From: Bacteroidota bacterium
Lineage (GTDB): Bacteria > Bacteroidota > Bacteroidia > NS11-12g > UBA955
Direction of reading: 5' to 3'
NCBI GenBank assembly: GCA_023957335.1
Contig: JAMLHC010000001.1
Span: 516,017-580,016 of the forward strand
DNA: 64,000 bases
This document shows positions 13,858 through 62,200 of the stretch, in pieces (the stretch's first letter is position 1; the number at the start of each line of letters is the position of its first letter). The notes beneath the pieces were generated by a model. The model did no database searches, was not told where the DNA came from, and saw nothing but the letters and a program-made list of their open reading frames with translations. The position numbers and the translations under genes were made by a program.

Positions 13858-15369
13858 TTAAACCTTCAAGTTAATTTTTTTGCGTTTATAGAATTCTTGC
13901 TCTTGTGGCTTAAGTTGAATTTGCCAATTTAAACCTTCTAAGGTTTTTTCTTTTTCGGGTATGTCAGCCGGAGGATAGAGTGTTCCGGAGGGTTCCGGAT
14001 TTGGATAAAAACGGATATTATTAATACCTGTACTATCCATATAGATAGTTATCTGACCACTTACAATCTTATTTACCCCACTGTAGGGACTTGTATCTGA
14101 TTCATCATCGCGTACATAATACACAGACTGTCCTTGTCCAATGAGATTCACTCTGCGGAGTTTGCCGTCATCAAAATAGTTATAAATTTCATTGCCTGCC
14201 ATCTGATTAAACCTATCCTCCTCCAGCCAAGAGGCTACAAACCCCTCATTGCGAACAAACATATAATCCAGTTTGTCGTCTTTCATGTAAACACTGATAG
14301 AATCTCCTGTAATCTGATTATTCTCATTCCACAAGATGGGTTTATGCAACATGAGTATAACAGAATCTTTCATAAAATATATCAAAGTATCGCAGATGCC
14401 AGCTATATCGGGCGAAAATATTTGAGCATTTTTGAAAGCAATTAGTTTTTTGATTGCAGTGTCAGAGAAATAATAGAAAGTATCTGCCATCAACAGCATG
14501 GTATCTTCATTCAGCAAACGCTCGCTCATGGGCAGTCCATTGATAACGGTTTCCTTTCTTTTCTCCATATACAATCCCTTTTGACCATAGACTTTAACCC
14601 CTTCGGAAGTGTCATTCAAAACAATATTGCCAAAAGCTTGACCATCACCTGTGTTTCTGTTGTAGAAAAAACTGTCAGCAGTGATGTCTGATGACTCGCC
14701 AAAAATGGTGGCTCTTTTGCTGAATGAAGCCAGATTAGAGGCAGTGTTATAGTATCCCCATGTACATTCAATCCTGTTTTGTTCACTGTTAATCACAGTA
14801 GGTCCATAGAAATAAGCAGTTCTTGCAGTAGTAATATATTGCAAGGTGTCGCCTTTCATGGTATAGTCAGGATTAACCAAAACTACATTTCCTTTGAAAG
14901 ACGCTGTACTGTTTCTCGAATTATAATATCCTTTATCACTTGTCAGCACATCATTTTCATTGATAATCTTACCCCCGGCACCATACGAACCGCTTTTGAT
15001 GCGGGTGTCATAATCTATGTAGGGAGTAGTCAATATCATTTTGCGGTCGGTTAAAATAACATCACCGGAAACCCTTGCCATCTTAGTTTTCCCGTCATAA
15101 AAAACTCTTTTTCCGCTCATATTAAAAGTATCGGGCTGATAAATTCTAACTTGTCCTACCCCGTCAATTGTATTGTATTTATCATTGATAATTGCCGAAT
15201 CACACTCAATAAAAACACCTTCGTGCAGTACTTTAATATTCCCTTTACAGTATTTCGACTGGGTTGATGCATCATAGCGAAGTTCATCCGCATTGATAAT
15301 TTGGACTTTTTGAGCCTGTACATGGGTTATACCTATCCAAACAACGCCTATTAATATGTAGATTCTCAA
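13858..15369 (-). CDS. OstA-like (LptA/LptD-type) periplasmic protein
   Basis: A 503-residue exported protein (signal peptide ending near VQAQ, residue 20). It is built of LptA-like beta-jellyroll repeats: INADELRYDASTQSKYCKGNIKV, ARVSGDVILTDRKMILTTPYIDYD, GYYNSRNSTASFKGNVVLVN, GYYNTASNLASFSKRATIFG. This is the OstA-like family of Bacteroidota, thought to bridge lipopolysaccharide from the inner membrane LptFG complex to the outer membrane. It is the last gene of the unit ftsH - small exported protein - OstA-like. Longer than E. coli LptA (about 185), so it may span more of the periplasm or act differently. Confidence 0.85.
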   Translation of the reverse strand: MRIYILIGVVWIGITHVQAQKVQIINADELRYDASTQSKYCKGNIKVLHEGVFIECDSAIINDKYNTIDGVGQVRIYQPDTFNMSGKRVFYDGKTKMARVSGDVILTDRKMILTTPYIDYDTRIKSGSYGAGGKIINENDVLTSDKGYYNSRNSTASFKGNVVLVNPDYTMKGDTLQYITTARTAYFYGPTVINSEQNRIECTWGYYNTASNLASFSKRATIFGESSDITADSFFYNRNTGDGQAFGNIVLNDTSEGVKVYGQKGLYMEKRKETVINGLPMSERLLNEDTMLLMADTFYYFSDTAIKKLIAFKNAQIFSPDIAGICDTLIYFMKDSVILMLHKPILWNENNQITGDSISVYMKDDKLDYMFVRNEGFVASWLEEDRFNQMAGNEIYNYFDDGKLRRVNLIGQGQSVYYVRDDESDTSPYSGVNKIVSGQITIYMDSTGINNIRFYPNPEPSGTLYPPADIPEKEKTLEGLNWQIQLKPQEQEFYKRKKINLKV

Positions 15370-15390: not shown

Positions 15391-15699
15391 TTAACATTTA
15401 CAACCCGGTGTATGTACTTTCTCCTCACCCTTTTTATTGATGTGTCGGAGGATTTTACCCTTTTCGTTAAACTCAATGAAGTAAATCCTTTTGCCATTTT
15501 TGAACTTCTCTTTAGATACTAACTTGTTGGTGGTCGTATTATATGACTTAATAATTTTCACCTTGCCGCCATAGCGCGTTTTCACAACGGTTTTTAGGCT
15601 ATCTCCTAAATTATGTCCAAAACCCAAACCTGCCAGTCCAAATAAAGCACAAGCAACAAGCAGGCTTCTGAGTACCGTAGGATTCGGCTTCAATTTCAT
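15391..15699 (-). CDS. Small exported protein of unknown function
   Basis: A 102-residue protein with a signal peptide (LRSLLVACALFGLAGLGFG) and a basic mature part ending in HTPGCKC, two closely spaced cysteines. The centre, KVKIIKSYNTTTNKLVSKEKFKNGKRIYFIEFNEKGKILRHI in part, resembles the repeats of MORN-like or 'toxin-antitoxin YwqK' proteins, in which short KxxFKNGK phrases recur. It overlaps ftsH in an ATGA and lies 21 bases before the OstA-like gene. I do not recognise the family. Confidence 0.7.
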   Translation of the reverse strand: MKLKPNPTVLRSLLVACALFGLAGLGFGHNLGDSLKTVVKTRYGGKVKIIKSYNTTTNKLVSKEKFKNGKRIYFIEFNEKGKILRHINKKGEEKVHTPGCKC

Positions 15700-19144: not shown

Positions 19145-19798
19145 TTACGCTTCTCCCCTATTTCGTTTACGAATTTTAATATTGGCTTTACTCTCGTTAC
19201 CTGCCACAAGGCGTTTAATGTTTTTTTGGTGTGTTAGTACAACCATAATTGCAGCCGAGATACCGAATGCCATAAAAAAAGGTTCATCCGGTTTAAAAAT
19301 AAAGAGCAATAACAAAGGGAAAGAAATTGTAGCAAGTATAGAACTCAATGAAACATATTTGGTTGAAAACAACACAACAAGAAACAAAGCCATGCATATC
19401 AAGGCAGGAACATAGTGTATTCCTATAACCATTCCCAAAAGCGTAGCAATTCCTTTTCCGCCTTTAAAATTTGCAAATACCGGTAGCACATGTCCTACCA
19501 CAGCCATCAAGCCACAAAGAAGTTGAAGATTTACGAATCGAGCCGAATAAATATCTACAAATCCCAATAACCAAGGTAAAGAAGCAGCAATTAAGCCTTT
19601 AGAAATATCCATCATCAGCACAAATATTCCGGCTTTGGTGCCTAATACACGGAACGTGTTTGTGGCACCAGCGTTACCACTACCATATTCTCTGATGTCT
19701 TTTTCGTAGAGAGCTTCTCCAACCCATACACTACTTGGAATGGAACCAAGCAAGTAAGCTAAAACCGTCAACCCGAGTATAATTAGATTCTCTGTCAA
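19145..19798 (-). CDS. plsY: Glycerol-3-phosphate acyltransferase PlsY
   Basis: A 217-residue polytopic membrane enzyme that transfers acyl groups from acyl phosphate to glycerol-3-phosphate, the first step of phospholipid synthesis. Motif 1 is LLGSIPSSVWVG, with GSGNAGATNTFRVLG as the phosphate-binding motif, and motif 3 is FKGGKGIATLLG. At least five hydrophobic helices. The start codon is TTG (19796-19798); no ATG is available in frame. A consensus promoter at 19830-19860 reads into it, separating it from the large gene upstream. The C-terminal tail is basic. Confidence 0.95.
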   Translation of the reverse strand: MTENLIILGLTVLAYLLGSIPSSVWVGEALYEKDIREYGSGNAGATNTFRVLGTKAGIFVLMMDISKGLIAASLPWLLGFVDIYSARFVNLQLLCGLMAVVGHVLPVFANFKGGKGIATLLGMVIGIHYVPALICMALFLVVLFSTKYVSLSSILATISFPLLLLFIFKPDEPFFMAFGISAAIMVVLTHQKNIKRLVAGNESKANIKIRKRNRGEA

Positions 19799-19829: not shown

Positions 19830-19860
19830 CAAAGATATATTAATTTTCATCATTATTCAA
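19830..19860 (-). promoter_or_regulatory. Promoter of plsY
   Basis: Minus strand TTG (19858-19860), 20 bases, TATCTTTG (19830-19837). The -33 lies in the last codons of the 1490-residue gene; the leader would be about 26 bases. Confidence 0.65.
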
Positions 19861-22800
19861 ATCGTCTCAACAGCTTATCTATAGAACGCGGTGTTCCCCT
19901 ACGGAGACTATAGTCATCATTGGAAATTTTTTCTCCTTTGTCAAGAATAATTTGGTTGAATTTTTCATCGGTAGAATAGGCATACATCACTCCTCTGACA
20001 TAATTCAAATAGATAAACTCATTGGGATTTAATTCGATATAAATATGAATGTCATCTCCGCTTCTTTTTTTATCCACCACGATGATGGCCCCAAAACGTT
20101 TGTTAATATTCACCCCATTAATAGATGCCAAATCAATGGAACCATTGCAAATAAAGGAGTTTGTTCTGTTATTAAAATACCAATTGGATGCAGCCACAAA
20201 GAACATTGCTTTTTCAGGCGCTCTCTCATTCACTTCTTTTATATACAAATCCGTGTCGAATATCTCTTTTACTTTATCTGTTGCTTTGCCTACAGATTTA
20301 AAGAATTGGCTTGTTGCAACAACATTTTCCGAGTTCAAATTACCACTGTTTTTCACACGGCTGACAACCGATTTAGAGGCAGCAGATGTAGCATAAAACT
20401 CAGGCAGATTAGCGGCAAATGTGCTAGTTTTTACACTCACCGAAGAACCATAATTCTCATTTTTAACAAGTTCAACCATTCTTGTAACAGCTTCTTTGGG
20501 TAATGGAAAATCAAAATAGAAAGACCAATCAAAATTAAAAGTAGTATCACTTTCTTTCCATTCAGAAGTGCCCGCAAATCCACTTTTTATACCGGATTTC
20601 ACATTCAGACTCATACCATAACTTCCTTCAGTTTTGATGGTACGATTTTTATCATTTACCCTGATAACATTACCTTTCTCCTCTTTTTCGAACAACTTTC
20701 TTTTATCTCCCACAACAATATCACCGGTGTTATGGTCATAATATAGAACTCCCGAATCTAAGGTTACTTCGGGATTGGAGTAAGCTTGTTTCATCCCAAA
20801 CAACATTGGATATACCCTTACGCTATCCCCAGCCACAAAGAGTCCCGTCAGCAAAGGTCGGTTGTCCACATTGCGTGCATTGTTCACATCAATCACTACA
20901 TCCAAAGCATCCATTTCTCCCTTAAAACGCAACCATTGTCCGCTCACATAATCCATGGAATGAATAGGTTTTACAAAACCTGTATAAGTAATTGGTTTGT
21001 CTGTGCTGATAATTTTTGCCCAACCTTTATACCCAATCTCAACATCCAGATAAAAGCTCTGTGAATCCGTGATATTACCAACTCCCACTAAGTGTTTTTG
21101 CTCATCAATTTTAATGGAGTCCATATTGATCACATGCTGTTCTCCAAGCTTGGTTTTGAAGTCATATAATCCACTTGCACGAATATTATTCTTCCCGTAA
21201 ATTTTTGTATGTGCATTATATATTTTGTGGTATTTATCTACTCTATTGGCTTCAATCAGAGAGCTGTCAAGCCTGTCGATGTCCGCATCTTTTCGTACAA
21301 TTGCTTTGTTTGCAAAAGGATAGACTCTCGAATCTGCAACATCTATGAAAGGGATTTTCTCCATATATACCACATTTTCCTTCATATCAAAATCCGCATA
21401 AGAGCATTCAAACTTGAGTGAATCTTGGTCCGGCTTTGTGGAGACAAAGAAAGGTTTAACCGCAGGGAACTTAGTATTGGGACGCATTTCCATTCTTTTG
21501 TCATCCATTTTCCAAGTATAATCACTAAGGATTGTACCATATTGATTGGCCGGCAAATAGGTCATATTGTCGGGAGAATTGGCAATAAAATTACCTTTAC
21601 GTTTATCAAAATCTATATGAGACTCAACATTAGATGTTTGGAAGGCAAATACCTGCGGATCAATGGAGAAGATTCGAATACCGGAAGTATCCGCATCTAC
21701 TTTGTTTTTACCATAGATCATGTTCTTTGAGTAGAACTCTGCTTCGTTCCATTCTAATTGTCCGTTTCCGGCTAATGCAGTTGGTGAAAGGGCTAAAGTA
21801 CCTCCAAATTTATAATGAGTTTGAAACACATTAAATTTGGTTTCGTTGTGTGTAACCAACATCTTGTCTTCGTAGGGCAACCAACGGGTTGTTACATCCA
21901 CACCTGAAACCAGCGGATATTTGGAAGATTCCGGCAAATCAAATGTTTTGCTATTAGCTTGGGTTTCCTTGGGTAAAATCAAAAAGTCATCACTTTTGGT
22001 AGATGAGGTCTGGTATGTAATCTCTCCATTGCCATATAATCCTTTGTTACTTAAAGAAATATTCATTTTCCCATTACCCTTGCTTTTGTACATAGGCAAA
22101 TCTATATCTTTTACAAAACCCAAAGAATAATCGGGTTGGATGGTGAGTTCATATCTGAAATCAGGAAAAATATCTGCCGAAATAAAAGTACCCGGTAGTT
22201 TCAAATTAGCAGCAGTAAAATCATTGAGATTAGTAATGCGAAAAGGATCTACTCCAAAATAGAAGCTTTCTTTTTTATAACTAAAGTTATGTGTCTGCTC
22301 ATATTCATAATGCACTTTTGAACCTTTTTCAGAAGTAAAAATGGGGTAATCGGGATAATCCTTCTTTTTGAGTCCGGACTTATTCTTGGGATAGTCAAAT
22401 TCAATGGTTCCATATAAATCAGACAATACAGATTGCACTTTGCGCAAAGCCTGTGTTGTTTCGTCCGGATAATACAACACCATGGAATCGTAGTAAGTAT
22501 CTCGAATCATGAAAGCATTATAATCAAAATTAAAAGCTTTAGAGTAAAAATCGACTTTCCCTGCCCTAACAATCCCGCCAAAAGTCATATTGCGGTCTTT
22601 TTTGATGAGTACCTGCTGCTCATTAGGCACTGCAATACAGTTTTGGCTATCGCTAAAGGTAAACTTACGAACCCCTTCCACTTGCAGATTCATGTTGTTC
22701 AAACTCAGTGTAACATTTGGTCTGGCGGAAATAACTGAAAGCATTCGTACGACATCATAATCACGAACTTTCATATAATTATTTACATAGTTAAAGAGCC

Positions 22801-24325
22801 TGTCTCTCACTTCGATTGAGTCCGTTTTCATGTCATAAAAAATATAGCCATCATCGGCAAGGTTGATGATTTGCTCTTGGATATTTTCCTTTTTGCTGTT
22901 ATAAAATGCGCAATAATCATCCAAATGGAATTTTCTTTGACGAGTTTTTAGCGAGTAATCCCGCATTCGGTAAAGAGGATTATATGCCAAAATACCTTGA
23001 ACCTTTTCATATCTGAATTCCTTGAAAAAGTCGTTAGACTCAATTGCAACGGGCTTTTCGGGCGACATATTCCTAAATTCCACATAAGGTGTATTTTGTT
23101 TCCAAACAATTCGTTCCGCATCAATATCCACCCCATGAAAATTATCCTGAAAAGTCATTTGCATCAATCCTTTATCTCCTTTGTTGATGATAAGTTCTTT
23201 TTTATTGAAATCATACCGTATTTCTACTGCCGGATGGTAAATGGTTTTGTTGGAATCTAATAAAACCGTAAAAGAGGAATTCAAACTCAATACTACACCT
23301 TCGTCAATCTTAAAGGACTGAGATTGAAGAATCACGCGCGGTTTCTTATCTTGTAATAATGTGATAGTTACCGGGTCGGAGTTCACATTATCTCCGGTAA
23401 TGACTTTGCCAATAAGCGAAAAACCTCCACTGTATGTTGCCATATCGCCCACCAAGCCGTCAATTTTTACATTACCTTTATAGCTTGAAAACTTTGGGTA
23501 ATTTCCGTTTGCAAGCTGATCTTGGCTGGTAGAAAATGAAACCTGATCGGTAACTCTGCCTAAAACATCTCCTTTGAAATATTTAGGATAGCGCAAATAG
23601 GCACTATCAGCAGTGTAGGTACTGCCGGCAAGGTCAATTTTGTATGTTGTCAATCGGCATGATGCTTCTTCTTCTGCCATACCTACCCTTGACCAGTTTA
23701 TCTTTCCATTTTTGCCCACCCATGTTACTTTGTCAGGATAAAAAACACCTTCTGTATCATAGATTTGCATCTTATCCAAAAATGCTTCTCCGGTCAGGTT
23801 GAGGTATTTAAACTTGATTGCTACTCTACCATCATAAATAAGTTCAAACTTATTATTATCCGCATACCATTTTAACTGATCGGTACTATAGAGTATGTTT
23901 TCTGCAAAAAGTTTATTGGCTGTTTGTAGGAACGCTAGGTATTCCTTTGCATTCTTTGCCAACAGTTTACCACTGATATTCTGCCATTGCGTGAGTACTT
24001 TTTTGTCAATATTATTCGCAAAATAATAGTTGATGGTACTGACAAAAAGTTCGAAATATGGCTGCACAGTGAGCTTCCTAAACAACATATCTTCGCAGAT
24101 ATCTCTAATTGCCATTTTTTCTTTTTCATCAAACTTTCCTGCATCCCAGGCTGCTTTAAACTTTTGTGCCTCTTTGGCTACGTGTTCTTGCCCATTATCC
24201 ATCATGTGTTTTACCAACTCATTGATAAAAACCTCAGGCTCGGACGAAAAACTTTTCTGTTGCGCATTGAGCAATGTGCAAGAAAAAAGTAAGATAATAG
24301 ATAGTAGGATTTTAATTTTATTCAT
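19853..24325 (-). CDS. Very large exported protein, 1490 residues, family not recognised
   Basis: A signal peptide (ILLSIILLFSCTLLNAQQ, cleavage likely after NAQ near residue 22; the embedded FSC could alternatively be a lipobox) leads a 1490-residue protein with no other membrane helix. Residues about 25-150 are helical and charged (DNGQEHVAKEAQKFKAAWDAG, DICEDMLFRKLTVQPYF); the remainder looks beta-rich with many alternating aromatic/polar stretches, e.g. AYLRYPKYFKGDVLGRVTDQ, GNVKIDGLVGDMATYSGGFSLIGK, GNGEITYQTSSTKSDDF and FAGTSEWKESDTTFNFDWSFYF. This recurring 'G.v...a.ysgg' style recalls OstA-like, AsmA or TamB-type beta-strand scaffolds, but I cannot assign a family. It ends KLLRRFE with no sorting domain. 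It lies 79 bases after tpiA in the same direction; plsY downstream has its own promoter. Confidence 0.85.
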   Translation of the reverse strand: MNKIKILLSIILLFSCTLLNAQQKSFSSEPEVFINELVKHMMDNGQEHVAKEAQKFKAAWDAGKFDEKEKMAIRDICEDMLFRKLTVQPYFELFVSTINYYFANNIDKKVLTQWQNISGKLLAKNAKEYLAFLQTANKLFAENILYSTDQLKWYADNNKFELIYDGRVAIKFKYLNLTGEAFLDKMQIYDTEGVFYPDKVTWVGKNGKINWSRVGMAEEEASCRLTTYKIDLAGSTYTADSAYLRYPKYFKGDVLGRVTDQVSFSTSQDQLANGNYPKFSSYKGNVKIDGLVGDMATYSGGFSLIGKVITGDNVNSDPVTITLLQDKKPRVILQSQSFKIDEGVVLSLNSSFTVLLDSNKTIYHPAVEIRYDFNKKELIINKGDKGLMQMTFQDNFHGVDIDAERIVWKQNTPYVEFRNMSPEKPVAIESNDFFKEFRYEKVQGILAYNPLYRMRDYSLKTRQRKFHLDDYCAFYNSKKENIQEQIINLADDGYIFYDMKTDSIEVRDRLFNYVNNYMKVRDYDVVRMLSVISARPNVTLSLNNMNLQVEGVRKFTFSDSQNCIAVPNEQQVLIKKDRNMTFGGIVRAGKVDFYSKAFNFDYNAFMIRDTYYDSMVLYYPDETTQALRKVQSVLSDLYGTIEFDYPKNKSGLKKKDYPDYPIFTSEKGSKVHYEYEQTHNFSYKKESFYFGVDPFRITNLNDFTAANLKLPGTFISADIFPDFRYELTIQPDYSLGFVKDIDLPMYKSKGNGKMNISLSNKGLYGNGEITYQTSSTKSDDFLILPKETQANSKTFDLPESSKYPLVSGVDVTTRWLPYEDKMLVTHNETKFNVFQTHYKFGGTLALSPTALAGNGQLEWNEAEFYSKNMIYGKNKVDADTSGIRIFSIDPQVFAFQTSNVESHIDFDKRKGNFIANSPDNMTYLPANQYGTILSDYTWKMDDKRMEMRPNTKFPAVKPFFVSTKPDQDSLKFECSYADFDMKENVVYMEKIPFIDVADSRVYPFANKAIVRKDADIDRLDSSLIEANRVDKYHKIYNAHTKIYGKNNIRASGLYDFKTKLGEQHVINMDSIKIDEQKHLVGVGNITDSQSFYLDVEIGYKGWAKIISTDKPITYTGFVKPIHSMDYVSGQWLRFKGEMDALDVVIDVNNARNVDNRPLLTGLFVAGDSVRVYPMLFGMKQAYSNPEVTLDSGVLYYDHNTGDIVVGDKRKLFEKEEKGNVIRVNDKNRTIKTEGSYGMSLNVKSGIKSGFAGTSEWKESDTTFNFDWSFYFDFPLPKEAVTRMVELVKNENYGSSVSVKTSTFAANLPEFYATSAASKSVVSRVKNSGNLNSENVVATSQFFKSVGKATDKVKEIFDTDLYIKEVNERAPEKAMFFVAASNWYFNNRTNSFICNGSIDLASINGVNINKRFGAIIVVDKKRSGDDIHIYIELNPNEFIYLNYVRGVMYAYSTDEKFNQIILDKGEKISNDDYSLRRGTPRSIDKLLRRFE

Positions 24326-24404: not shown

Positions 24405-25169
24405 TCAACCTGCTGCTTTAATAATTTCACAAAAATCTCTGGATTTAAGAGAAGCCCCGCCAACCAAACCTCCATCAATATCTGGCGCTGAAAACAACTC
24501 CTTTGCATTATCCGGTTTTACACTACCTCCGTAAATGATGCGGATACCGGCAGCAATTTCAGGAGAAAATATTTCGGCTAATTCTTCTCTGATATAGGAA
24601 TGAACATCCTGTGCTTGCTCGGTTGTGGCAGTCTTGCCCGTGCCGATTGCCCACACGGGCTCATAAGCAATGATGAGCTTGGACGGCTGAATATCATTAT
24701 CAACACCTTCCATCCCTTCCCACAACTGTGTTTTTATCACATCCCACAAATCACCATTTTCTCTTTCGTCAAGTGTCTCACCTATGCAATAAATAGGTGT
24801 CAAACCAGCGCCTATTACTTTTCTGATTTTTTGATTCAACAATTCATTTTCCTCTGAAAAATAGTGTCTGCGTTCTGAGTGACCAATAATCACATGTGTA
24901 CAGCCCACACTTTTGAGCATCTCAACAGAAATTTCTCCGGTATATGCTCCCGAATTTTCTTGATGCACATTTTGTGCGCCTATTTGGATATTGTGTTTTT
25001 CTATATTCTTTGCAATGGATGCAAGGCTAATATAGGGTGGAAACAAGATAATTTCAGCATCATTGCGGATTTCATCTTTGACAATCCCTTTGATTTCAGT
25101 TACTAACCCTAAAGATTCATTAAGGTCTTTGTTCATTTTCCAATTTCCGGCAACAATTTTTCTCCTCAT
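24405..25169 (-). CDS. tpiA: Triosephosphate isomerase
   Basis: A 254-residue TIM-barrel enzyme interconverting dihydroxyacetone phosphate and glyceraldehyde-3-phosphate. It shows the substrate-binding RRKIVAGNWKMN at the N-terminus, catalytic His in VIIGHSERRHYF, catalytic Glu in IAYEPVWAIGTGKTAT (also the mobile loop) and the phosphate-binding IIYGGSVKPDN and DGGLVGGASL. The ATG at 25169 (or 25175) is preferred: the longer frame to 25226 would include the -7-like element at 25198-25205. Confidence 0.97.
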   Translation of the reverse strand: MRRKIVAGNWKMNKDLNESLGLVTEIKGIVKDEIRNDAEIILFPPYISLASIAKNIEKHNIQIGAQNVHQENSGAYTGEISVEMLKSVGCTHVIIGHSERRHYFSEENELLNQKIRKVIGAGLTPIYCIGETLDERENGDLWDVIKTQLWEGMEGVDNDIQPSKLIIAYEPVWAIGTGKTATTEQAQDVHSYIREELAEIFSPEIAAGIRIIYGGSVKPDNAKELFSAPDIDGGLVGGASLKSRDFCEIIKAAG

Positions 25170-25197
25170 TATCATAGACTCTTTGTTTGAATTGGCG

Positions 25198-25205
25198 CAA
25201 AAATA
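25198..25205 (-). promoter_or_regulatory. -7 element of tpiA
   Basis: TATTTTTG on the minus strand, 28 bases before the tpiA ATG. No -33 TTG at the expected spacing. The rest of the 246-base divergent region to 25415 shows no gene, hairpin or repeat that I can support. Confidence 0.4.
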
Positions 25206-25415
25206 AGGTTTTATTACTCGAATCATACATAGTGTTCTGCCTTGCCCCTCTACTATATCCTATGCGCTTAGTGTAGTTAAAACATAAGTCAATTAACTTT
25301 CTTGTCCTGTTCTACATTTCGAACCATAGAAAAAAATGATGGATTGATTTTTTAGTATAGATATCACAAAAACATAAATTTACCTTTTTTGCGTTTAATG
25401 CAATTAAACATCATT

Positions 25416-29486: not shown

Positions 29487-30566
29487 ATGCTTAAAAGGAT
29501 TGACAAGTACATCATCAAAACTTTTCTTACCACATTCTTGGTAACCTTGGGGCTATTCAGCATCATTATTATTGTATTTGATATAGGAGAAAAACTGGAT
29601 GATTTTATTACCAATAAAGCACCTGTAAAAGAGATTATTGTTAATTATTATTTCAACTTTATTCCGCAAATCATGAATATGTTTAGTCCCATATTTGTGT
29701 TTGTTTCGGTCATCTTTTTCACTTCCAAAATGGCACAACGCACTGAAATTGTTGCCATTCTTGCATCCGGTGTTTCATACAAAAGATTTTTAAGACCTTA
29801 TATATACACTGCCTTGATATTGGGTGTACTCTCATACTTTCTCAACGGCTGGATTATTCCTCATGCAGACAAAAAGCGAGCAGCATTTGAAAACACATAC
29901 ACTCGCAATAAATTCCATTCTCGTTCCGGCATTCACCGCCAAATCAAGCCTGATGTTTTTTTGTCCATTGACTGGTTCAGCCAATACGACAGCTCCGGCA
30001 CAAATGTTACCTTAGAACAATATAAAAACGGGCAACTGATTTCCAAAACGTATGCACGCAGAATGAGTTTTAATTATGGTGCGGAGAAATGGCAATTACA
30101 AGATGTTTTTTCACGTGAATATAACAAAGACGGCAGTCAGACCATTCACAGCTACAACACCTTAGATACTGCTATTCAATTTGATCCCTCAGACTTTTTC
30201 TTAAGGGTAGAAGATTTACAAACTTTTGACAACAACGAACTCACCAAGATTATTCACGCTGAACAAGAAAGAGGCTCAGAGAATGTATATTTATATACAA
30301 CAGAAAAGTACAGACGCATGGCATCTCCCTTTTCTACTTTTATTCTGACCATCATCGGAGTTTGTGTTTCATCCAAAAAAACACGTGGAGGAATCGGTGT
30401 CAGCCTTGGGATTGGAATAGGTTTGAGTTTCAGTTTTTTGTTTATCGTGCAATTTTTTAACAGTTATGGCGCAACAGGCTTGCTTAGTGCCCCGCTTGCA
30501 GTCTCCATTCCCAACATATTATATTTAGGTATTGCCTGGATATTATATAAAAAAGTACAAAAATAG
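29487..30566 (+). CDS. LptF/LptG family permease
   Basis: A 359-residue YjgP/YjgQ-type permease of the lipopolysaccharide export ABC transporter. N-terminal helices (about residues 12-32, 55-80, 98-118) are followed by a periplasmic domain (about 125-265) and three C-terminal helices. The motif TEIVAILASGVSYKRFLRP, facing LptB, and SPIFVFVSVIFFTSKMAQR are characteristic. Whether it is the LptF or LptG counterpart cannot be told. It follows tgt by four bases. In function it connects with the OstA-like protein at 13858-15369. Confidence 0.9.
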   Translation: MLKRIDKYIIKTFLTTFLVTLGLFSIIIIVFDIGEKLDDFITNKAPVKEIIVNYYFNFIPQIMNMFSPIFVFVSVIFFTSKMAQRTEIVAILASGVSYKRFLRPYIYTALILGVLSYFLNGWIIPHADKKRAAFENTYTRNKFHSRSGIHRQIKPDVFLSIDWFSQYDSSGTNVTLEQYKNGQLISKTYARRMSFNYGAEKWQLQDVFSREYNKDGSQTIHSYNTLDTAIQFDPSDFFLRVEDLQTFDNNELTKIIHAEQERGSENVYLYTTEKYRRMASPFSTFILTIIGVCVSSKKTRGGIGVSLGIGIGLSFSFLFIVQFFNSYGATGLLSAPLAVSIPNILYLGIAWILYKKVQK

Positions 30567-38056: not shown

Positions 38057-41000
38057 TTATTTAAGCACCGTAACCGTGCCTTTCTGCATGTGATAGCTGT
38101 CATCCCAACCTGTATATGTAGCAATCCAAATAAATACGTTATCAAAAGGTTCATCTCCCAGATAATTACCATCCCACTGTTTGCCTTTATCATGGGTATC
38201 GAAAACCTTTTCGCCCCAACGGTTATATACTCTGATGTTAAACTCTTTGACAAAAACCGGCACAAATCCCCAGAGTTCATTAATACCATCATGATTGGGA
38301 CTGAAAGCATTGGGCACGTGCAGCAAAGGAGGTTGAACCAAATAAATAGTATTGGACGCACTGACAGCATTGAATCTCTCATTAGTATCGCGTTGTTGAT
38401 ATGCATCCACACGGAAATAATATCCACCCCACCAATAATCCAAGTCCAAATCTCGATAATTCAGCTTGTTCTGATTTAAACTCACAATAGGTCTAAGAGT
38501 CCCGGTATCTACACTGCGATTCAACACATATTCTTTCACACCTGAATTCCATTTGCGATAAGGATTCCAATTCAAATCAAAATACCATCGTTCGGAAACA
38601 CCTTGCAACACAATATTACAACCCATGTTTGATGTGTCACTGATATGCCCGCACTTATCCGTTATCTGTAAACAATAACAATAAGATTCCTTACTGACAT
38701 CCAGCCGGTTATCTGTATAAATTGTATCATTGACATTGGCAACTTCTGCAATTTCTTTCCATGCAATTGCACCTTGCACATTGTGTCCTCTGTATAGTTT
38801 GTAGCTGCGGAAATCATCCTCTACACTTTTTGACCAAACCACCTGAACGCTTTTATTGTCATCAGAAACTGTAACGGTAATTAACTGACTTCCAACAATG
38901 GGCGATTCAAACTCATCTTTGGAACAAATCCTAAAATCAAGGGTATCTGTCATTCCGCAAATATTTTCAGTAACTATAAAATAGCAGTAGTTCTGACTTT
39001 TCAAATCGAGATTACTGTTGTCCATCACAAAGCCACCTTTGCCGTCCGTAATTGTTTTTATTAAATGGAGTGTTCCATCTGGATATCTGCAAATCAAATA
39101 TGCTTTAGAGAAGTATGTTCCTGTTTCAAAGCTCTGCCATTCAACTTTGGTTTCATTTTTCACCAAGAAATCTAAACAAAGCACTTCCGGTCCGGGAGCC
39201 AAAGGCGGAGCTGTTACCAGAATTTTAATAATAGCAAACGCAGAATCACTATGCGGACAGCCACCATCTTCGATTTTAACCTTAATATAAATGGTATCTC
39301 CGGTCAAATGCGCACAATCGGGTTGCCATGTAAAATCAGCCCAAACTGTATCAGTAGAGGGTTTGCTTGATACCTGAATATGCGGGAAAGGCGCACTGCC
39401 ATTGATAAAATCCGATTCAAAACTAAGATTCAATATATCTTCATTATCCGGGTCTGTGCCAAAGTAAGAGAATGTAAGAGTTTGAGCAACCATAACCGTA
39501 AAGAAAGTATCTTTCACAAGCGGTTTTTTATTGCGTGCATCCATGTCAAACTTAAAAAGAGCGTTGTTACAATTTGAACTCTTATTTACCTCGCTAAAAG
39601 CTCCTGTAGTTGTTGGAAACATACTATTACCACCGCAACCTGCACACACCGAATGATAAATCACTCCACGTGCATCAAAACGACTTGTTCCGCCATCCAC
39701 GTGTTCATAAGCATTTACCATCGGTGATGATTTTCCACCTATATAAGTCCCGTAAATCAATTCTTTCATATCCTTAGAAAAAACTGCAAGCCAAAAATCC
39801 GAACCGTCAGTTGCTTTCTGAAATGCATCATTGCTAACCGGCATCAGGCTTGTGTTTCCTGTTCCAAAACCATAGAGGGAGTTAACCTTTCCTCCCCAGC
39901 CGGAAACATATATTTTTCCGCAATCATCAATTAGAAATGCAGTTGGTGCAATGTCCCTATTGCTTCTACCTGAACCAATGGTAGTAGAGAAGATGATACT
40001 TTTGAGGTCTTTTTCAAATTTTACTACAAACTGACTTGCACCATCATTCCGGAACACATTGCCCGTAACGGGAAACTTGCCCATAGTTTGACCAAATACA
40101 TAAGGATAGCCCTCTTTGTCGGTTTTCACCATATAACTTTGGTCATACTCGTCAGTACCGATCAGTGTCCCCGCAATTAATGCGCCCGAGGTCCGATTAA
40201 CACGAATAAGATAGCCATCCGGTTTGTCGTTCGGCATAGAAGAGCGATATCCACCAAGCCCATTCAGAAAAGCACCATTGTTAGTTCCGCCCGTAATAAA
40301 GACATCATTATCTGTTCCCAATGCTATTCCAAAGGCAGCATCAAAATTGTTGAATTGACCTATTTTTCCCGTACCAACATAACTGCTCCACAAGATTGTA
40401 GAAAGAGTAGGATTAAGTTTGATGGCAACTCCGCTTTGCGGGTTGTAATAACTGGATATAAAAGGTTTTACCAGAGGAAAATCAATAGAGGTCGTAGAAG
40501 ATGCTATATAGACATTGTCAGTTTCATCCACAATAACTTCTCCCCTAAAATCGTCTGCATAGTTTGCCAACAAAGGCAAATCACCGACTGCATTATGTGT
40601 CAAATCCCCATTGATGCCATCATCTCCAATACCGCCCACCAAGGCTGAAGCTATCAATGCGGTACCATTAGGGTTAAAAATGGTAACAAAAATGTTATAG
40701 GTAGTAACGGGATTAACAAGCGGGTCGTAGGAAAGCAAATTTTGCGTCATCGGAAAATCACGAGAGCGTGTTGAACCTAAGACAATTAACTGATCCATGC
40801 TGTTCACAATCATACTGTGGGGTTGTTCATTGCTACTTCCACCTAAAAAAGTTCCAAATAACAGTTGCGAACCATCCTTTGAATATTTATGAATACCGCA
40901 ATCCCTTGCCGGATAAGCAAAGCTACCATTTCCTCCCGGATTTTCATCTACTCCGCCATTATAGACAAGTTGATAAGCACCTGCACTCACAGGGAAACCT

Positions 41001-41839
41001 TTATCATTTGTAAAATTAAAGTTATAAACTGTACCTCCGGCATAACCATTACCGGCTAAGTCATAAGTGGCAGTAAACCCAAAATTGTCTGCATCAGAAC
41101 CCGAATAGGTTGAAAACACAAGAATAGGGTCAATAATCAGCTTGTGTCTGCGGTTGAAACGCTTGCCAAACTTAAATCCCAACACATTGCCATCCAACGT
41201 AAACTCAGCAGGAACACTCACTTTCTCGGCATTAATTTCCTGATAAACATACGGTGGAAACTCGGTCATATTACCCAGACCGGTTTTGATTTCAAATCCA
41301 TTTTCGGTTAGTTCGAGTTTATCCGCACCTTCGTATTGTATTCTAATTTGTTCCGGATTGCCTCCGGTTTTAACAATAAAATTATATTTAATCCCAAAGT
41401 CATTGTGCAAAATCTGCAAGTCAATATGAGGATATACTTCTTTGTAAAGCACTTGTTTATATGCCCTTAAGCCACTCCGCCATTGGTTGCGATTGTTGCT
41501 TAGGTAGTAATTAAAATAGGCTTCACTCGCTTCTGTGGTTTCTATCACAGGGTTTGGATTGGAGTTCAACAACTTGGACTTGATGACTTGCACGGGCAAA
41601 ATAGTCCTTGCATGTCTGTCGTGTTGAACCTTGTGTAGCGAATCTGAGTTATACAAAATCCAAGTCATGCCTTGTTTTTCAAGAAAGAGAAAACCGCTTT
41701 TGATGACAGCTTTCATTTCAAAATCACCGTCCCATTGCCCTTCATTTCGCACAAAACCTTCTTGAGCCCTTGCAGTATTGCAATACAAGTTTGCAAGAAT
41801 GATAAGAAAAAGGGTAAATATGCGTACTACATTCTGCAT
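38057..41839 (-). CDS. Large secreted beta-propeller protein with T9SS type B sorting domain (CHU_C)
   Basis: A 1260-residue exported protein, signal peptide ending near NTARAQ (residue 26). The N-terminal region (FVRNEGQWDGDFEMKAVIKS to about residue 230) is the domain that starts many Bacteroidota SBBP-repeat proteins. A central region of about residues 240-800 contains SBBP-like propeller units, e.g. GNGYAGGTVYNFNF, LGSTRSRDFPMTQN, VYISGWGGKVNSLYGFG. Fibronectin-like segments follow (about 880-1150). The C-terminal 90 residues are the gliding-motility-associated CHU_C domain: VPNAFSPNHDGINELW, IRVYNRWGEKVFDT, WDGNYLGDEPFDNVFIW, ending MQKGTVTVLK. That is a type IX secretion signal (type B). 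So it is a T9SS substrate, likely attached to or released from the cell surface. A role in adhesion is a guess. Confidence 0.9.
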   Translation of the reverse strand: MQNVVRIFTLFLIILANLYCNTARAQEGFVRNEGQWDGDFEMKAVIKSGFLFLEKQGMTWILYNSDSLHKVQHDRHARTILPVQVIKSKLLNSNPNPVIETTEASEAYFNYYLSNNRNQWRSGLRAYKQVLYKEVYPHIDLQILHNDFGIKYNFIVKTGGNPEQIRIQYEGADKLELTENGFEIKTGLGNMTEFPPYVYQEINAEKVSVPAEFTLDGNVLGFKFGKRFNRRHKLIIDPILVFSTYSGSDADNFGFTATYDLAGNGYAGGTVYNFNFTNDKGFPVSAGAYQLVYNGGVDENPGGNGSFAYPARDCGIHKYSKDGSQLLFGTFLGGSSNEQPHSMIVNSMDQLIVLGSTRSRDFPMTQNLLSYDPLVNPVTTYNIFVTIFNPNGTALIASALVGGIGDDGINGDLTHNAVGDLPLLANYADDFRGEVIVDETDNVYIASSTTSIDFPLVKPFISSYYNPQSGVAIKLNPTLSTILWSSYVGTGKIGQFNNFDAAFGIALGTDNDVFITGGTNNGAFLNGLGGYRSSMPNDKPDGYLIRVNRTSGALIAGTLIGTDEYDQSYMVKTDKEGYPYVFGQTMGKFPVTGNVFRNDGASQFVVKFEKDLKSIIFSTTIGSGRSNRDIAPTAFLIDDCGKIYVSGWGGKVNSLYGFGTGNTSLMPVSNDAFQKATDGSDFWLAVFSKDMKELIYGTYIGGKSSPMVNAYEHVDGGTSRFDARGVIYHSVCAGCGGNSMFPTTTGAFSEVNKSSNCNNALFKFDMDARNKKPLVKDTFFTVMVAQTLTFSYFGTDPDNEDILNLSFESDFINGSAPFPHIQVSSKPSTDTVWADFTWQPDCAHLTGDTIYIKVKIEDGGCPHSDSAFAIIKILVTAPPLAPGPEVLCLDFLVKNETKVEWQSFETGTYFSKAYLICRYPDGTLHLIKTITDGKGGFVMDNSNLDLKSQNYCYFIVTENICGMTDTLDFRICSKDEFESPIVGSQLITVTVSDDNKSVQVVWSKSVEDDFRSYKLYRGHNVQGAIAWKEIAEVANVNDTIYTDNRLDVSKESYCYCLQITDKCGHISDTSNMGCNIVLQGVSERWYFDLNWNPYRKWNSGVKEYVLNRSVDTGTLRPIVSLNQNKLNYRDLDLDYWWGGYYFRVDAYQQRDTNERFNAVSASNTIYLVQPPLLHVPNAFSPNHDGINELWGFVPVFVKEFNIRVYNRWGEKVFDTHDKGKQWDGNYLGDEPFDNVFIWIATYTGWDDSYHMQKGTVTVLK

Positions 41840-54845: not shown

Positions 54846-57800
54846 TTAGTGTGAAGCAGATGACACTGTTTCTTCCCTATCATGACTATCTGTACTATAT
54901 GAGTCATTTTTAGAAGCTAACAACATTTCATATTCTTCTTTTGAACCAACCACAATATCATCATATTCTCTTAATCCTGTTCCGGCAGGTATGAGATGCC
55001 CTACTATTACGTTCTCTTTCAATCCTCGTAAGTCATCAACTTTACCAGAAATAGAAGCTTCATTTAACACTTTCGTTGTTTCTTGGAACGATGCAGCAGA
55101 CAAGAAGCTTTGAGTTCCCAACGATGCTTTAGTAATACCTTGAAGTAAAGGTGTCATGGTTGCTGCTACAGCATCTCTTACCTCTATTTGCTTCATATCC
55201 TGTCTCTTCAATTTCGAGTTTTCTTCACGTAATTCTCTCAATGAAACGACCTGACCTGGTTTCATAGTAGTTGAATCACCTGCATCTAATACAACTTTCT
55301 TATCAAAAATTGCATCGTTTTCTTGATTAAACTCCCACTTTTCAACCGATTCACCTTCCAATAAGATAGTGTCTCCGGACTCAACAATTTCAACCTTTTG
55401 CATCATTTGGCGAATAATAATTTCAATGTGTTTATTATTGATTTTTACACCTTGTAATCTATACACTTCTTGGATTCCATTGAGAATATATTCCTGAACC
55501 GCAGTAGGACCCTGAACTCTCAGAATATCTTGAGGTGTAATTGCGCCATCTGAAAGAGGATTACCTGCTTTTATAAAATCACCATCTTGTACATAAATAT
55601 GTTTAGACAAAGGTACTAAGTAGCGTTTTACATCACCTTCTCTGGACTCGACTACAATCTCTCTATTGCTTCGTTTGATACCACCATAGGTAACAACACC
55701 ATCAATTTCTGACACAACAGCGGGATTAGAAGGGTTTCTTGCTTCAAACAACTCAGTGATACGAGGCAAACCTCCGGTAATATCGCTTGTTTTGCTGCCA
55801 CTTCTTGGGATTTTAGCAATAATATCTCCTGCTTTAATCTTCTGACCATCCTCAACAGACAACCTCGCACCAACCGGAACGTTAATTTCCTTTAATAGAT
55901 TGCCTTTCTTATCGTTGATACGAATAATTGGAATAATTGTTTTGTCCTTACTGTCAACAATTACCTTTTCTTTAAATCCTGTTTGATCGTCCACTTCTTC
56001 TTTGAAAGAAACCCCGGACTCAAGACCAAAGAACTCAACAAGTCCATCCAAGTCAGACAAAATGATGGCATTGTATGGGTCCCAAGAGCATATCAAATCG
56101 TTTTTAGAGACTTTTTGATTGTTTTTAATAAACAAAGTTGAACTATAGGGGATATGATATGTTGTAATCAAAGCATTTGATTTAGGGTCATGGATTCTGA
56201 TGTCACCCGAACGACTAATCACAATTTCAACGGTTTCGGACTTACCTGTTTCATCTTCAACCCTTTCAGTTTTAATTGTTTTAATTTCATCAAATAAAGC
56301 AATCCCTTCATATTTAGTTTTGATTTCGGATTCTGCTGCAATATTGGATGCAGTACCTCCCACGTGGAAAGTTCTCAATGTAAGCTGAGTACCCGGTTCT
56401 CCGATAGATTGAGCGGCAATTACACCGACAGCTTCTCCTTTTTGAACCATTCTATTGGTTGCCAAATTACGCCCATAACATTTTGCACAAACTCCGGAAT
56501 GAGATTCGCATGTCATTACTGACCTTATCTCAACCTCTTCAATATTGGCTTCTGTAATTTTCTTGGCAGCATTTTCATCAATTTCTTCACCGGCAGCAAT
56601 AATAAGTTTATTAGTTTTCGGATTATAAATATCGTGTAATCCTGTTCTACCTAAAATTCTTTCTGATAAAGATTCAATAACTTCATCATTATCTTTAAGC
56701 GCAACCATGGTTATTCCACGTAGAGTTCCACAATCACTTTCTGTGATAATAACATCTTGTGCAACATCATGCAAACGTCTTGTCAAATAACCTGCATCAG
56801 CTGTTTTAAGTGCGGTATCTGCCAAACCTTTACGTGCTCCGTGCGTTGAGATGAAGTATTCCAATACGGAAAGTCCTTCTTTAAAATTTGCAAGAATTGG
56901 GTTTTCGATAATCTCTCCTCCGCCACCACCAACGTGTTTGCGAGGCTTTGCCATCAATCCTCTCATTCCACCCAGCTGTCTAATTTGTTCTTTTGAACCT
57001 CTGGCACCTGAGTCAAGCATCATATAAATAGGGTTAAATCCTTGTCTGTCCTCACTTAATTGTTTCAATAAGATATCAGACACCTTTGAATTTACTTTAG
57101 TCCAAATATCGATAACCTGATTATAACGCTCATTATTAGTAATAAATCCATTTGCGTAGTTCATGGTTACTTCCTCTACTTGTTGACGCGCTTCCTCAAC
57201 AAGAGTCTTTTTCAAATCCGGAATTTTAACATCTGAAATACTAAAAGATAGACCACCTCTAAATGCATAATAGAATCCCATATCTTTGATATTATCTAGA
57301 AAATCAGCAGTAACTTTGATACCGCATGTTTGCACCATTTCTCCAATAATATTTCTTAAGGATTTCTTGGTCAGTGTTTGGTTAATGAAACCCATCTCCT
57401 TTGGTACAACTTGGTTGAAAAGTACACGTCCAATGGTAGTTTCAATATACTTATTTTCAAAAACATCGTTTTCCTTCACATTTGCTTTGATTTTAATCCA
57501 AGCGTTTAGGTCTGCACGTTTTTCATTAAAAGCGATGATTACTTCTTCAGGTGAATAAAAAGTCAATCCTTCACCTTTAACGGGTGAACCGGCAATTGAT
57601 TTTTTACCTTTAGAAATATAATAAAGTCCCAGAATCATATCTTGAGAAGGTACAGCGATTGGCGCACCATTGGCCGGATTTAAGATATTATTAGGAGCTA
57701 ACATTAGCATTTGTGCTTCTAAAATAGCAGCATTACCTAGTGGGACATGGACAGCCATTTGGTCACCGTCAAAGTCAGCGTTATATCCTGTACACGTTAA

Positions 57801-59192
57801 CGGGTGAAGTTGAATTGCCTTTCCTTCCACAAGTTTAGGTTGGAAAGCCTGAATTCCCAATCTATGCAGTGTAGGAGCACGGTTAAGCAATACAGGATGA
57901 CCTTTCAATATGTTTTCAAGAATCTCCCATATAACCGATTCTTTTCTATCCACAATCTTCTTTGCAGATTTAACTGTTTTAACAATACCTCTTTCAATGA
58001 GTTTGCGAATAATAAAAGGCTTAAACAACTCCGCAGCCATACCTTTAGGAATACCACATTCATTGAGTTTGAGTTTAGGTCCAACCACAATAACAGAACG
58101 ACCTGAATAGTCAACCCTCTTACCCAAAAGATTTTGTCTGAAACGACCTTGTTTTCCTTTAAGCATATCACTCAAGGACTTAAGTGGTCTGTTTCCGGCA
58201 GTTTTCACAGCATTAGCTCTTCTTGTATTATCAAGCAAAGAGTCAACTGCTTCTTGCAACATCCTCTTTTCATTTCGTAAGATTACATCAGGAGCTTTGA
58301 TATCTACAAGACGTTTTAACCTATTATTTCTAATAATTACTCTTCTGTAAAGGTCATTCAAGTCAGAAGTAGCAAATCTTCCACCTTCCAAAGGAACCAA
58401 AGGTCTCAGCTCTGGAGGAATAACAGGAAGATTGCGTAAAATCATCCATTCAGGTTCATTCTCACCTGTTTTTTGAGATGCTCTGAACGATTCGATTACT
58501 TTCAATCTTTTAAGTGCTTCGGTTTTTCTTTGCTGACTGGTTTCATTGGCAGCCTGATGTCTTAATTCATAAGAAAGTTCATCTAACTTAAGTCCTTTCA
58601 ATAATTCCTCAAGTGCTTCAGCTCCCATTTTTGCAATAAACTTATTAGGGTCTGAATCGTCAAGATACTGGTTTTCTTTAGGAAGAGCTTCAATGATATC
58701 ATTGTATTCCTCTTCAGTAAGGAAATCTAACTTATTGATATCTTCTTTGATACCGGGTTGGATTACTACATATCTTTCATAGTAAACCAGCATATCTAAT
58801 TTTTTAGAAGATAACCCTAATAAATAACCTATTTTGTTCGGTAGTGATTTGAAATACCAAATATGAGCAACGGGAACAATCAATTCGATATGTCCCATTC
58901 TTTCACGTCTTACTTTCTTTTCGGTAACTTCAACACCACATCTGTCACACACAATTCCTTTGTAGCGAATACGCTTGTATTTACCGCAATGACATTCATA
59001 GTCTTTAACGGGTCCGAAAATTTTCTCACAAAATAAACCACCCATCTCAGGCTTAAATGAGCGATAGTTTATGGTTTCCGGCTTAGTTACTTCACCAAAT
59101 GATCTTTGTAGTATCATTTCGGGAGAAGCCAAACTGATTCTTATTTTACTAAAGTTAGCATTTAGTTTTGGTGTTTTTTTATTTGTTTGCAT
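54846..59192 (-). CDS. rpoC: RNA polymerase beta' subunit
   Basis: The 1448-residue beta' subunit. N-terminal zinc site [20 protein letters not shown] (about 70-90); catalytic Mg loop [16 protein letters not shown] near residue 470; second zinc site with C-G-T-L-R-G and [16 protein letters not shown] at about 830-910; bridge helix/trigger loop region [19 protein letters not shown]. It has the insertion and length usual for the phylum. It follows rpoB by 29 bases. The acidic, Ser-rich C-terminal tail is typical. Confidence 0.98.
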
Positions 59193-59221: not shown

Positions 59222-62200
59222 TTACTCAAATGACATCTCAAGTCCTAAGCCTCTTAACTCATGTAACAACACATTGAATGATTCAGGAATTCCATTCATC
59301 ACAATAGGATCTCCTTTGACAATAGATTCGTAAGCTTTGGCTCTTCCCACAATGTCATCAGATTTGATGGTAAGAATTTCACGCAAGATGTTAGACGCCC
59401 CGAAAGCTTCAAGTGCCCAAACTTCCATCTCACCAAATCGCTGACCTCCAAACTGTGCTTTACCGCCCAGAGGTTGTTGTGTAATAAGTGAGTATGGTCC
59501 AATAGAACGCGCGTGCATTTTATCGTCAATCATGTGACCCAATTTGAGCATATATATTACGCCTACAGTCGTTTTTTGGTCAAACAATTCTCCGGTCAAA
59601 CCGTTGTATAAGTTAACCGAACCATATTCCGGCAGTCCTGCTTTTTGGATATACTCTTGTACTTCTTCTTCTGAGGCACCGTCAAAAATCGGGGTAGCAA
59701 ATTTTACGCCTAATTCAATACCTGCCCATCCTAAGATGGTTTCATAAATTTGTCCGAGATTCATCCTTGAAGGCACACCTAATGGATTAAGAACTATATC
59801 AACCGGTGTCCCGTCTTCCAAGAAAGGCATATCTTCTTCAGGAACAATTTTCGCAACAATACCTTTATTTCCGTGACGACCTGCCATTTTATCCCCTACT
59901 TTGAGTTTTCTTTTGGTAGCGACATAAACCTTAGCCATCTTCAGAATTCCGGTTGGGAGTTCATCTCCAACAGTAATTGCAAAATATTCTCTTCTGTATT
60001 CTGCATAGAATTCATTCTTGGCGTTTTTGTAGTTAACTAATATTTTTCTGACAAGGTCATTCTTTTCAGCATCAGTAGTCCAACCATCAAAGTTAACGGT
60101 ATCATAGTCAATAGAAGCTAAGGCTTTTTGAGAAAACTTAGTTCCTTTAGGAATCACATATTCATTCAATGAACTCTTAATTCCTTGTGAGGTTTTACCA
60201 TTCACTATTTTAAAGAGTTTTTGAATTAATTGTTCTCTGATTTTTGATACATTTCTTTCATAATCAGTTTCCAATTTCGTAATTCTGGTTTTCTCTTCAG
60301 TTTTGATACCTTTTGCTTTTTTAGAGCGTACAAAAAGCTGTTTGTTAATTACATAACCATTGGTTGAAGGTGGTGCTTTCAATGAAGCATCTTTTACATC
60401 ACCAGCTTTGTCTCCAAAGATAGCTCTGAGCAATTTTTCTTCTGGGCTAGGTTCTGACTCTCCTTTGGGTGTGATTTTACCAATCAAAATATCTCCCTCT
60501 TTCACTTCTGCACCAATTCTGATTAAACCATTTTCATCAAGGTTTTTGGTGGCTTCTTCGCTCACATTAGGAATATCGTTGGTCAACTCTTCCTCGCCTC
60601 TTTTGGTATCTCTCACTTCTACTTCAAATTCAAACACATGAAGCGAAGTAAACCAGTCATCCTTAACCACTTTTTCTGAGATTACAATAGCATCCTCAAA
60701 ATTGTATCCCTGCCATGGCATGAAAGCCACTTTAAGGTTTCTGCCCAAAGCAAGCTCTCCTCCATTGGTTGCATATCCTTCACACAAAACTTCACCTGCT
60801 TTTACCTTTTGTCCCTTTTTAACAATGGGGCGGAGGTTAATACAAGTATTTTGGTTGGTTCTTCTGAATTTGGTTATAGGATATGACACAACATTACCTG
60901 AGAAACTTGCTAATTCATCATCCTCAGAGAAGTTATATTTAATTCTAATGGTATTTCCATCCACGTATTCAACCACTCCATTGTGTTCTGCCACAACCAA
61001 TGCTCTTGAATCATGTGCTACCTTACCTTCCAATCCAGTTCCTACAACAGGAGCTTGTGGTCTCATCAGAGGTACAGCTTGGCGTTGCATGTTAGAACCC
61101 ATCAGTGCGCGGTTTGCATCATTATGTTCTAAAAATGGAATCAATGATGCTGCAATAGACACAATCTGATTGGGGGCAACATCCATACAATCAATTTTGT
61201 CCGGCTCTACAATTGGAAAATCACCCTCAAATCTAGCTTTAACAGCATTGGAAGCAAAGGTTCCATCTGCATTTAACTCTGCATTTGCTTGTGCAATGGT
61301 TTTGTTATCTTCGTCTTCTGCGCTGAGATAAATGACATTGCTTGATGCATCTACTTTTCCATCAACCACATTTCTGTATGGAGTTTCGATAAATCCCATA
61401 CTATTAATTTTTGCGTAAACACACAAAGATGAAATCAATCCTATATTGGGTCCCTCGGGAGTTTCAATGGTGCAAAGACGACCATAATGTGTGTAATGAA
61501 CGTCCCTAACCTCAAATCCTGCCCTCTCTCTTGACAATCCACCTGGTCCCAAAGCCGACAATCTGCGTTTATTGGTTAATTCAGCCAAGGGATTGGTTTG
61601 ATCCATAAACTGAGAAAGTTGATTTGTTCCAAAGAAGGAATTAATAACCGAAGACAATGTTCTTGCATTAATCAAGTCAGTAGGTGTAAACACCTCATTG
61701 TCTCTAATATTCATTTTTTCGCGAATGGTTCTTGACATTCTTGCCAATCCCACTCCGAACTGTTGATACAACTGCTCACCAACGGTTCTGACCCTTCTGT
61801 TACTCAAGTGGTCAATATCATCCACATCTGCTCTGGAGTTACTCAATTCAATCAGATAGTTTATAATACTGATAATATCTTCTTTGGTCAAAACCTTGGT
61901 TTCCATCGGAATATCAAGATTTAATTTTCTATTAATTCTATATCTACCCACATCTCCCAAGTCATATCGCTTGTCAGAGAAGAAAAGACGCTCAATAATA
62001 CCACGGGCAGTCTCTTCATCTGGCGGTTCTGTGTTTCTTAATTGTCTGTAAATATGTTCAACCGCTTCTTTACCTGAATTAGATGTATCTTTTTGAAGGG
62101 TATTGTAGATGATTGCATAATCATTCTTTAAATCGGTGTTTTTGTTTAGAATAATTGCTTTTGCTCCGGATTCAAGAATTTCGTTAATATGTGTATTTTC

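Follow-up and report, generated by a model that had tools for sequence, protein, structure and literature searches.

The window analysed here, meaning the whole stretch of 64 kb, encodes at window:19853-24325 a 1,490-residue protein that we label X. The gene is a single intact reading frame of 1,490 codons with an ATG start and is the longest of the five open reading frames of at least 700 residues in the window. The initial annotation called it the largest gene of the window and placed it between tpiA and plsY; the reading frame on the minus strand and the Pfam families found upstream (PF00121) and downstream (PF02660) confirm both points (Table 1). Three further long reading frames lie at 38057-41839, 54846-59192 and 59222-63034, all on the minus strand, encoding 1,260, 1,448 and 1,270 residues.

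Table 1. Gene X, its neighbours and the parts of its product (positions in the window, residues of X)
Feature	Position	Strand	Basis
Gene X, 1,490-residue exported protein	19853..24325	-	Single intact ORF, ATG start, 1,490 codons
tpiA, directly upstream of X, same strand	24405..25226	-	PF00121
plsY, directly downstream of X, same strand	19145..19798	-	PF02660
Signal peptide, residues 1-21	24263..24325	-	[AGSTC]Q end; putative cleavage after A21
N-terminal six-helix domain, residues 23-142	23900..24259	-	AlphaFold2, helices at model 8-120
Beta body, residues 144-1280, about 89 strands	20486..23896	-	DSSP, both models
Lpt-type jellyroll match I, residues 279-582, split by helical insert	22580..23491	-	LptD 8h1r_A, Z 10.4, 135 aligned, rmsd 2.8
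Helical insert, residues 434-523, winged-helix-like (weak)	22757..23026	-	YusO 1s3j_B, Z 7.3, 84 aligned, rmsd 4.0
Lpt-type jellyroll match II, residues 525-730, most conserved stretch	22136..22753	-	LptD 9rps_A, Z 9.9, 151 aligned, rmsd 3.9
Lpt-type jellyroll match III, residues 827-1015	21281..21847	-	LptD 9a39, Z 11.4, 167 aligned, rmsd 3.5
Linker, residues 1334-1353, low-confidence, poorly conserved	20267..20326	-	pLDDT <50; gapped in most homologues
C-terminal alpha/beta domain, residues 1378-1490	19856..20194	-	Model: six long strands, two helices

X and its same-genus orthologue are 89% identical, with a pN of 0.065 and a pS, near saturation, of 0.74. Residues 501-750 are the most constrained stretch in this comparison (pN 0.026). 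Strong purifying selection acts on X. Orthologues are present in 56 of 57 relatives, many genomes giving two or three aligned pieces of a single open frame. This presence, together with the pN and pS values, rules out a chance reading frame. X is a real, conserved, exported protein whose family is unnamed in the libraries searched.

A broad profile of 24 rows detects the family in 324 of 395 genomes of the class, corresponding to 159 of 196 genera. The phyletic check proposed in the initial annotation has a second side: only 10 of 247 genomes (narrow profile) or 11 of 296 (broad profile) carry X in a draw from the phylum, the listed part of which consists almost entirely of very complete genomes from other families. 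The family is widespread across the class Bacteroidia, but many well-sampled lineages do without it, a pattern in keeping with its having no named family. Many very complete genomes lack X in the broad-profile draw, and X is therefore dispensable in those lineages. No member was found outside the class in genome draws in which the share of other classes is not visible. When an alignment of 83 sequences is divided into 20-residue blocks, gaps relative to X make up no more than 9% of any block as far as residue 1320, and only residues 1321-1380 are poorly kept. This gap measure is blind to insertions in homologues, and members of 1,575-1,857 residues exist. Three of them, from families f11 and f12 (L119, L120 and L117), have 1,675-1,857 residues with insertions relative to X.

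A profile scan of genome contigs gave 473 X-encoding stretches, of which 80 were kept as named loci. By title these are Bacteroidota with two exceptions, one given as Sphingomonadales and the other simply as bacterium; some of the names, for example Chitinophaga pinensis, look misassigned. A tpiA homologue occurs at 43 of the 80 loci, many of which have short flanks. It is directly upstream of X at 34, one gene away at 8 (spacing 787-920 bases) and far off at 1. The plsY gene follows X directly on the same strand at 25 of the 80. The gene in the gap between tpiA and X is prmA (PF06325) in all three loci read. Distant families keep parts of the order, with tpiA-prmA-X in G105, prmA-X-plsY in G222 and prmA-X in G234; it is absent from the stretch read in G202, G246 and G101. 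Ten tpiA loci of X-negative genomes were read, and none contains an X match. Three of them (G132, G058 and G136) retain tpiA-prmA with another gene behind, and the other seven have no prmA beside tpiA. The simplest reading is an ancestral order tpiA-prmA-X-plsY with later loss.

All 83 aligned family sequences start with what looks like a signal peptide with an [AGSTC]Q end, and 80 of the 83 have a strongly hydrophobic core, bearing out the signal peptide ascribed to X earlier. A Cys in the later part of the core is found in only 7 of the 83, X included, so a general lipobox is unsupported for the family. No membrane helix follows the signal peptide in X, where 19-residue windows past residue 30 reach a mean hydropathy of at most 1.26. 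With a cleavable-type signal and no later membrane helix, X is most likely a soluble periplasmic protein or a peripheral one. By these sequence features it would fit a soluble exported periplasmic protein of the LptA/OstA kind. Hydropathy and the signal peptide, putatively cleaved, likewise reveal no inner-membrane anchor. The earlier statement that X carries no T9SS sorting domain also stands, the Pfam and NCBIfam scans being empty up to E 5.

Known families are not recognised in X by sequence, in line with the initial annotation. No Pfam family matches at the curated cut-off (best E 0.12), and searches of NCBIfam, PHROG and, by phmmer, the PDB gave no match. Profiles of the two halves of X gave one chance-level PDB row (PadR, E 0.094) for one half and none for the other. 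No Pfam or NCBIfam family is shared by two or more of 24 diverse members, nor by two or more of the 21 sequences in the first alignment. Matches to C1q, Arylesterase and other Pfam families were each confined to a single member and regarded as chance hits. The LptA/OstA models PF03968 and PF13100 do not match X up to E 5, nor any of the 24 members at E 0.1. Neither X nor these members match the Pfam models of LptD, which in this genome is represented by a separate LptD_2 protein, or the TamB PF04357 and AsmA models.

Profile-profile comparison by hhalign used the whole X-family profile and 45 overlapping windows of 120 residues, with reversed profiles as the null. The best OstA window, residues 892-1011, reached a score of 29.0 (E 0.0017), the highest score with reversed profiles being 22.3; it is one among 135 comparisons and was not counted. 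The best windows for TamB (24.9 against 23.1 reversed) and LptD (22.6 against 23.7) were not significant. The test is blunt, since OstA_2 against LptD, which share the OstA domain, reached only 23%. By sequence, no relationship of X to OstA_2, LptD or TamB can be demonstrated. Within X, profile windows match each other with up to 90% probability, over 44-52 columns only, a hint of duplicated jellyrolls. The motif DS...[YV]P occurs five times in X and in none of 2,000 shuffles; it was drawn from the same sequence, and the count does not amount to independent evidence. DS by itself is unenriched, with 12 occurrences against a mean of 8.5, a count reached by 264 of the 2,000 shuffles. A search for literature that describes the family, in which subscription papers were thinly covered, found none.

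The structure of X was predicted with AlphaFold2 as two overlapping models, each from a 59-sequence alignment, which were not joined. Residues 23-960 gave a mean pLDDT of 91.7 and pTM of 0.68. Residues 520-1490 gave 88.9 and 0.61, with values below 50 only in the linker and the first residues. The chain is predicted to run from six helices (residues 30-142) through strands, the helical insert and strands again to about residue 1280, then through helices and the loose linker to the C-terminal domain. The helical N-terminal domain and long beta-rich body described from the sequence are thus both seen in high-confidence models. The alternating-face hydrophobicity of the strands is 2.06 against 1.25 in shuffles, and only 21 of 42 long strands rank among the highest 20% of their own null. 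PDB profile searches with the terminal domains yielded nothing beyond designed proteins and rows of similar weakness; the C-terminal domain has no clear match in the PDB or Pfam. The helical insert, which lies inside the first jellyroll, gives weak winged-helix matches (YusO Z 7.3, PadR E 0.094) in an exported protein.

The closest structures to the predicted body are Lpt proteins. For residues 23-960, VIA ranks 1-18 are all LptA, LptH, LptC or LptD; YusO comes next (Z 7.3) and matches the helical insert. For residues 520-1490, ranks 1-15 are all Lpt proteins, followed by CPAP (Z 7.9). Among the latter rows is 4q35, which we take to be LptD; its record title reads membrane protein. The top Z scores are 12.5 for LptA, 11.4 for LptH, 10.7 for LptC, and 10.4 and 11.4 for LptD. 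The best of these superimposes LptA 2r1a_C on residues 835-960 of the first model (116 of 135 residues, rmsd 2.6 A). In the second model LptA 2r19_B falls on residues 835-968 with Z 9.4 (124 residues, 3.3 A). Rows 5 and 13 for residues 520-1490, which align LptD over the whole C-terminal model with rmsd above 30 A, were not used. VIA gave no row for TamB or YhdP and is uninformative on those folds.

Foldseek gave LptA and LptC with probabilities up to 1.00, target TM-scores of 0.5-0.6 and E of about 0.03-0.3. Its lowest E values belong to the long chains LRP2, ApoB100 and LptD, with low TM-scores. The top match in a viral library is a chorein-domain protein of mimivirus (E 1.1e-5, TM 0.11, 6% identity). 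Sequence identity in the Lpt rows is only 4-12%; therefore the fold is shown, and common ancestry with Lpt is not. The models make it very probable that the body of X carries the Lpt-type beta-jellyroll fold. Structure prediction, one of the checks suggested in the initial annotation, thus gave confident models with Lpt proteins as top matches. The likeness to OstA, AsmA or TamB proposed there is upheld in its OstA-like fold, the best structures being LptA, LptC, LptH and LptD; a sequence link to OstA_2, LptD or TamB is not, the hhalign check having found no significant one.

Single-layer sheet proteins match X too, CPAP with Z 7.9 and OspA with Z 5.5. These are rod-like, and X could be a structural scaffold or a surface or periplasmic rod, with a groove-like fold that moves no lipid. 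In favour of this, X has no membrane anchor, and its lipid role is a proposed one. However, the Lpt rows rank above the sheet proteins (Z about 8-12 against 5-8), and X lacks a T9SS sorting domain that would direct it to the surface; a scaffold is rather unlikely.

Parts of the Lpt machine are encoded within 16 kb of X. An OstA_2 protein of 503 residues (PF13100, E 3e-47; 13858-15369, minus strand), exported-looking, lies 4.5 kb from X and is likely the LptA-type bridge of this genome. An LptF/LptG permease (PF03739, E 4e-72) is encoded at 29487-30566 on the plus strand. Between ftsH and the OstA_2 gene lies a reading frame for an exported-looking protein of 102 residues (15391-15699, minus strand) with no Pfam match. 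The genome also encodes LptD_2 and one TamB match.

X might then be an extra or alternative part of the Lpt machine, extending or bracing the LPS bridge as a long LptA-like segment. Its top structural matches are Lpt proteins, and the OstA_2 protein and the permease share its window. The usual parts are nevertheless present, OstA_2 in 29 and LptD_2 in 28 of 30 relatives, and the neighbours of X where read are plsY, prmA and tpiA, not lpt genes. We regard such a part as unlikely. TamB occurs in 192 of 198 class genomes, and with OstA_2, LptD_2 and TamB so widely present X would add to Lpt and TAM.

The number of TamB copies is higher where X is absent. At least two TamB matches are found in 20 of 26 X-negative and 44 of 172 X-positive class genomes (Fisher 7e-7), and by family in 6 of 7 against 18 of 54 (Fisher 0.012), in statistics that ignore phylogeny, genome size and assembly quality; this is a lead only. 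In family f10 the X-negative genomes have 2 and 2 copies, the X-positive ones 1 and 1. One study reported TamB2 with TamL2 in 20 of 30 Bacteroidota species, with unknown function (PMC12045153). X could replace such a second AsmA-like bridge and carry phospholipid in lineages with one TamB, for which the class-wide, family and f10 contrasts agree. Those contrasts are confounded by the three factors just named, however, 44 X-positive genomes have at least two TamB matches, and no TamB stands at the X locus of X-negative genomes among the loci read. A stand-in for TamB2 is therefore improbable.

Our preferred reading, to which we assign a probability of about one half, takes up the lipid transport that the initial annotation raised as a possibility: X would be a further periplasmic protein of Bacteroidia, whose single chain forms a beta groove and conveys lipid between membranes. 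X would be secreted into the periplasm as a chain made of the six-helix domain, a very long body of Lpt-type jellyroll or beta-taco and the C-terminal alpha/beta domain. The body would most likely form a continuous open groove that holds lipid acyl chains. In the Lpt bridge, according to PMC6164715, jellyrolls joined edge to edge form a continuous hydrophobic groove along which LPS moves. Because at least three Lpt-like stretches lie in one chain of X, one continuous groove is the economical reading. The beta body, of about 1,140 residues, equals several LptA units and could span the periplasm, by an estimate made without coordinates. X would touch both membranes, its terminal domains docking on membrane partners. 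It would carry lipid between inner and outer membrane or hand it over, alongside the bridges formed by Lpt and TAM and not in their place. The plsY neighbour hints weakly at phospholipid as the lipid. Judged from the models, X probably works like an Lpt or AsmA bridge, yet it fails the sequence tests for either.

In its fullest form, which we offer tentatively and consider doubtful, this would give Bacteroidia a third conduit for lipid across the envelope, next to Lpt and TAM. X would form the whole groove in one secreted, anchorless chain; its gene would be ancestral in the class at tpiA-prmA-X-plsY, and several well-sampled lineages would have lost it, with extra TamB copies perhaps substituting there. 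The transport of non-LPS lipids to the outer membrane is an open question, above all in Bacteroidota. TamB and TamL are essential in Flavobacterium johnsoniae, and depletion of TamL did not substantially alter the lipid composition of the outer membrane, as reported in PMC12045153. X is a concrete candidate for a lipid conduit, being conserved, unannotated, about 1,500 residues long, often beside plsY and found in the majority of the class's sampled genera.

X can be compared with several known systems. VPS13-like or chorein proteins with a repeating beta groove supply its best viral row, but the TM-score is 0.11 and there is no Pfam sequence relation. The AsmA-like proteins are described in PMC12045153 as beta-taco tubes anchored in the inner membrane and resembling the eukaryotic repeating-groove proteins. 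TamB, TamB2, YhdP and YdbH are similar to X in length and in having a long beta body, predicted in the case of X. X instead has a cleavable-type signal peptide, lacks PF04357 and coexists with TamB. The OstA_2 protein of the same window shares recurring conserved D[ST] motifs with X, whereas it has 503 residues and its profile comparison with X is not significant. LptA, like X, is exported without a membrane anchor, and the jellyroll of LptA, LptC and the LptD N-terminus is the fold predicted in at least three stretches of X. Unlike the Lpt units, X is one chain of 1,490 residues, with a helical N-terminal domain, a helical insert and a C-terminal domain of its own.
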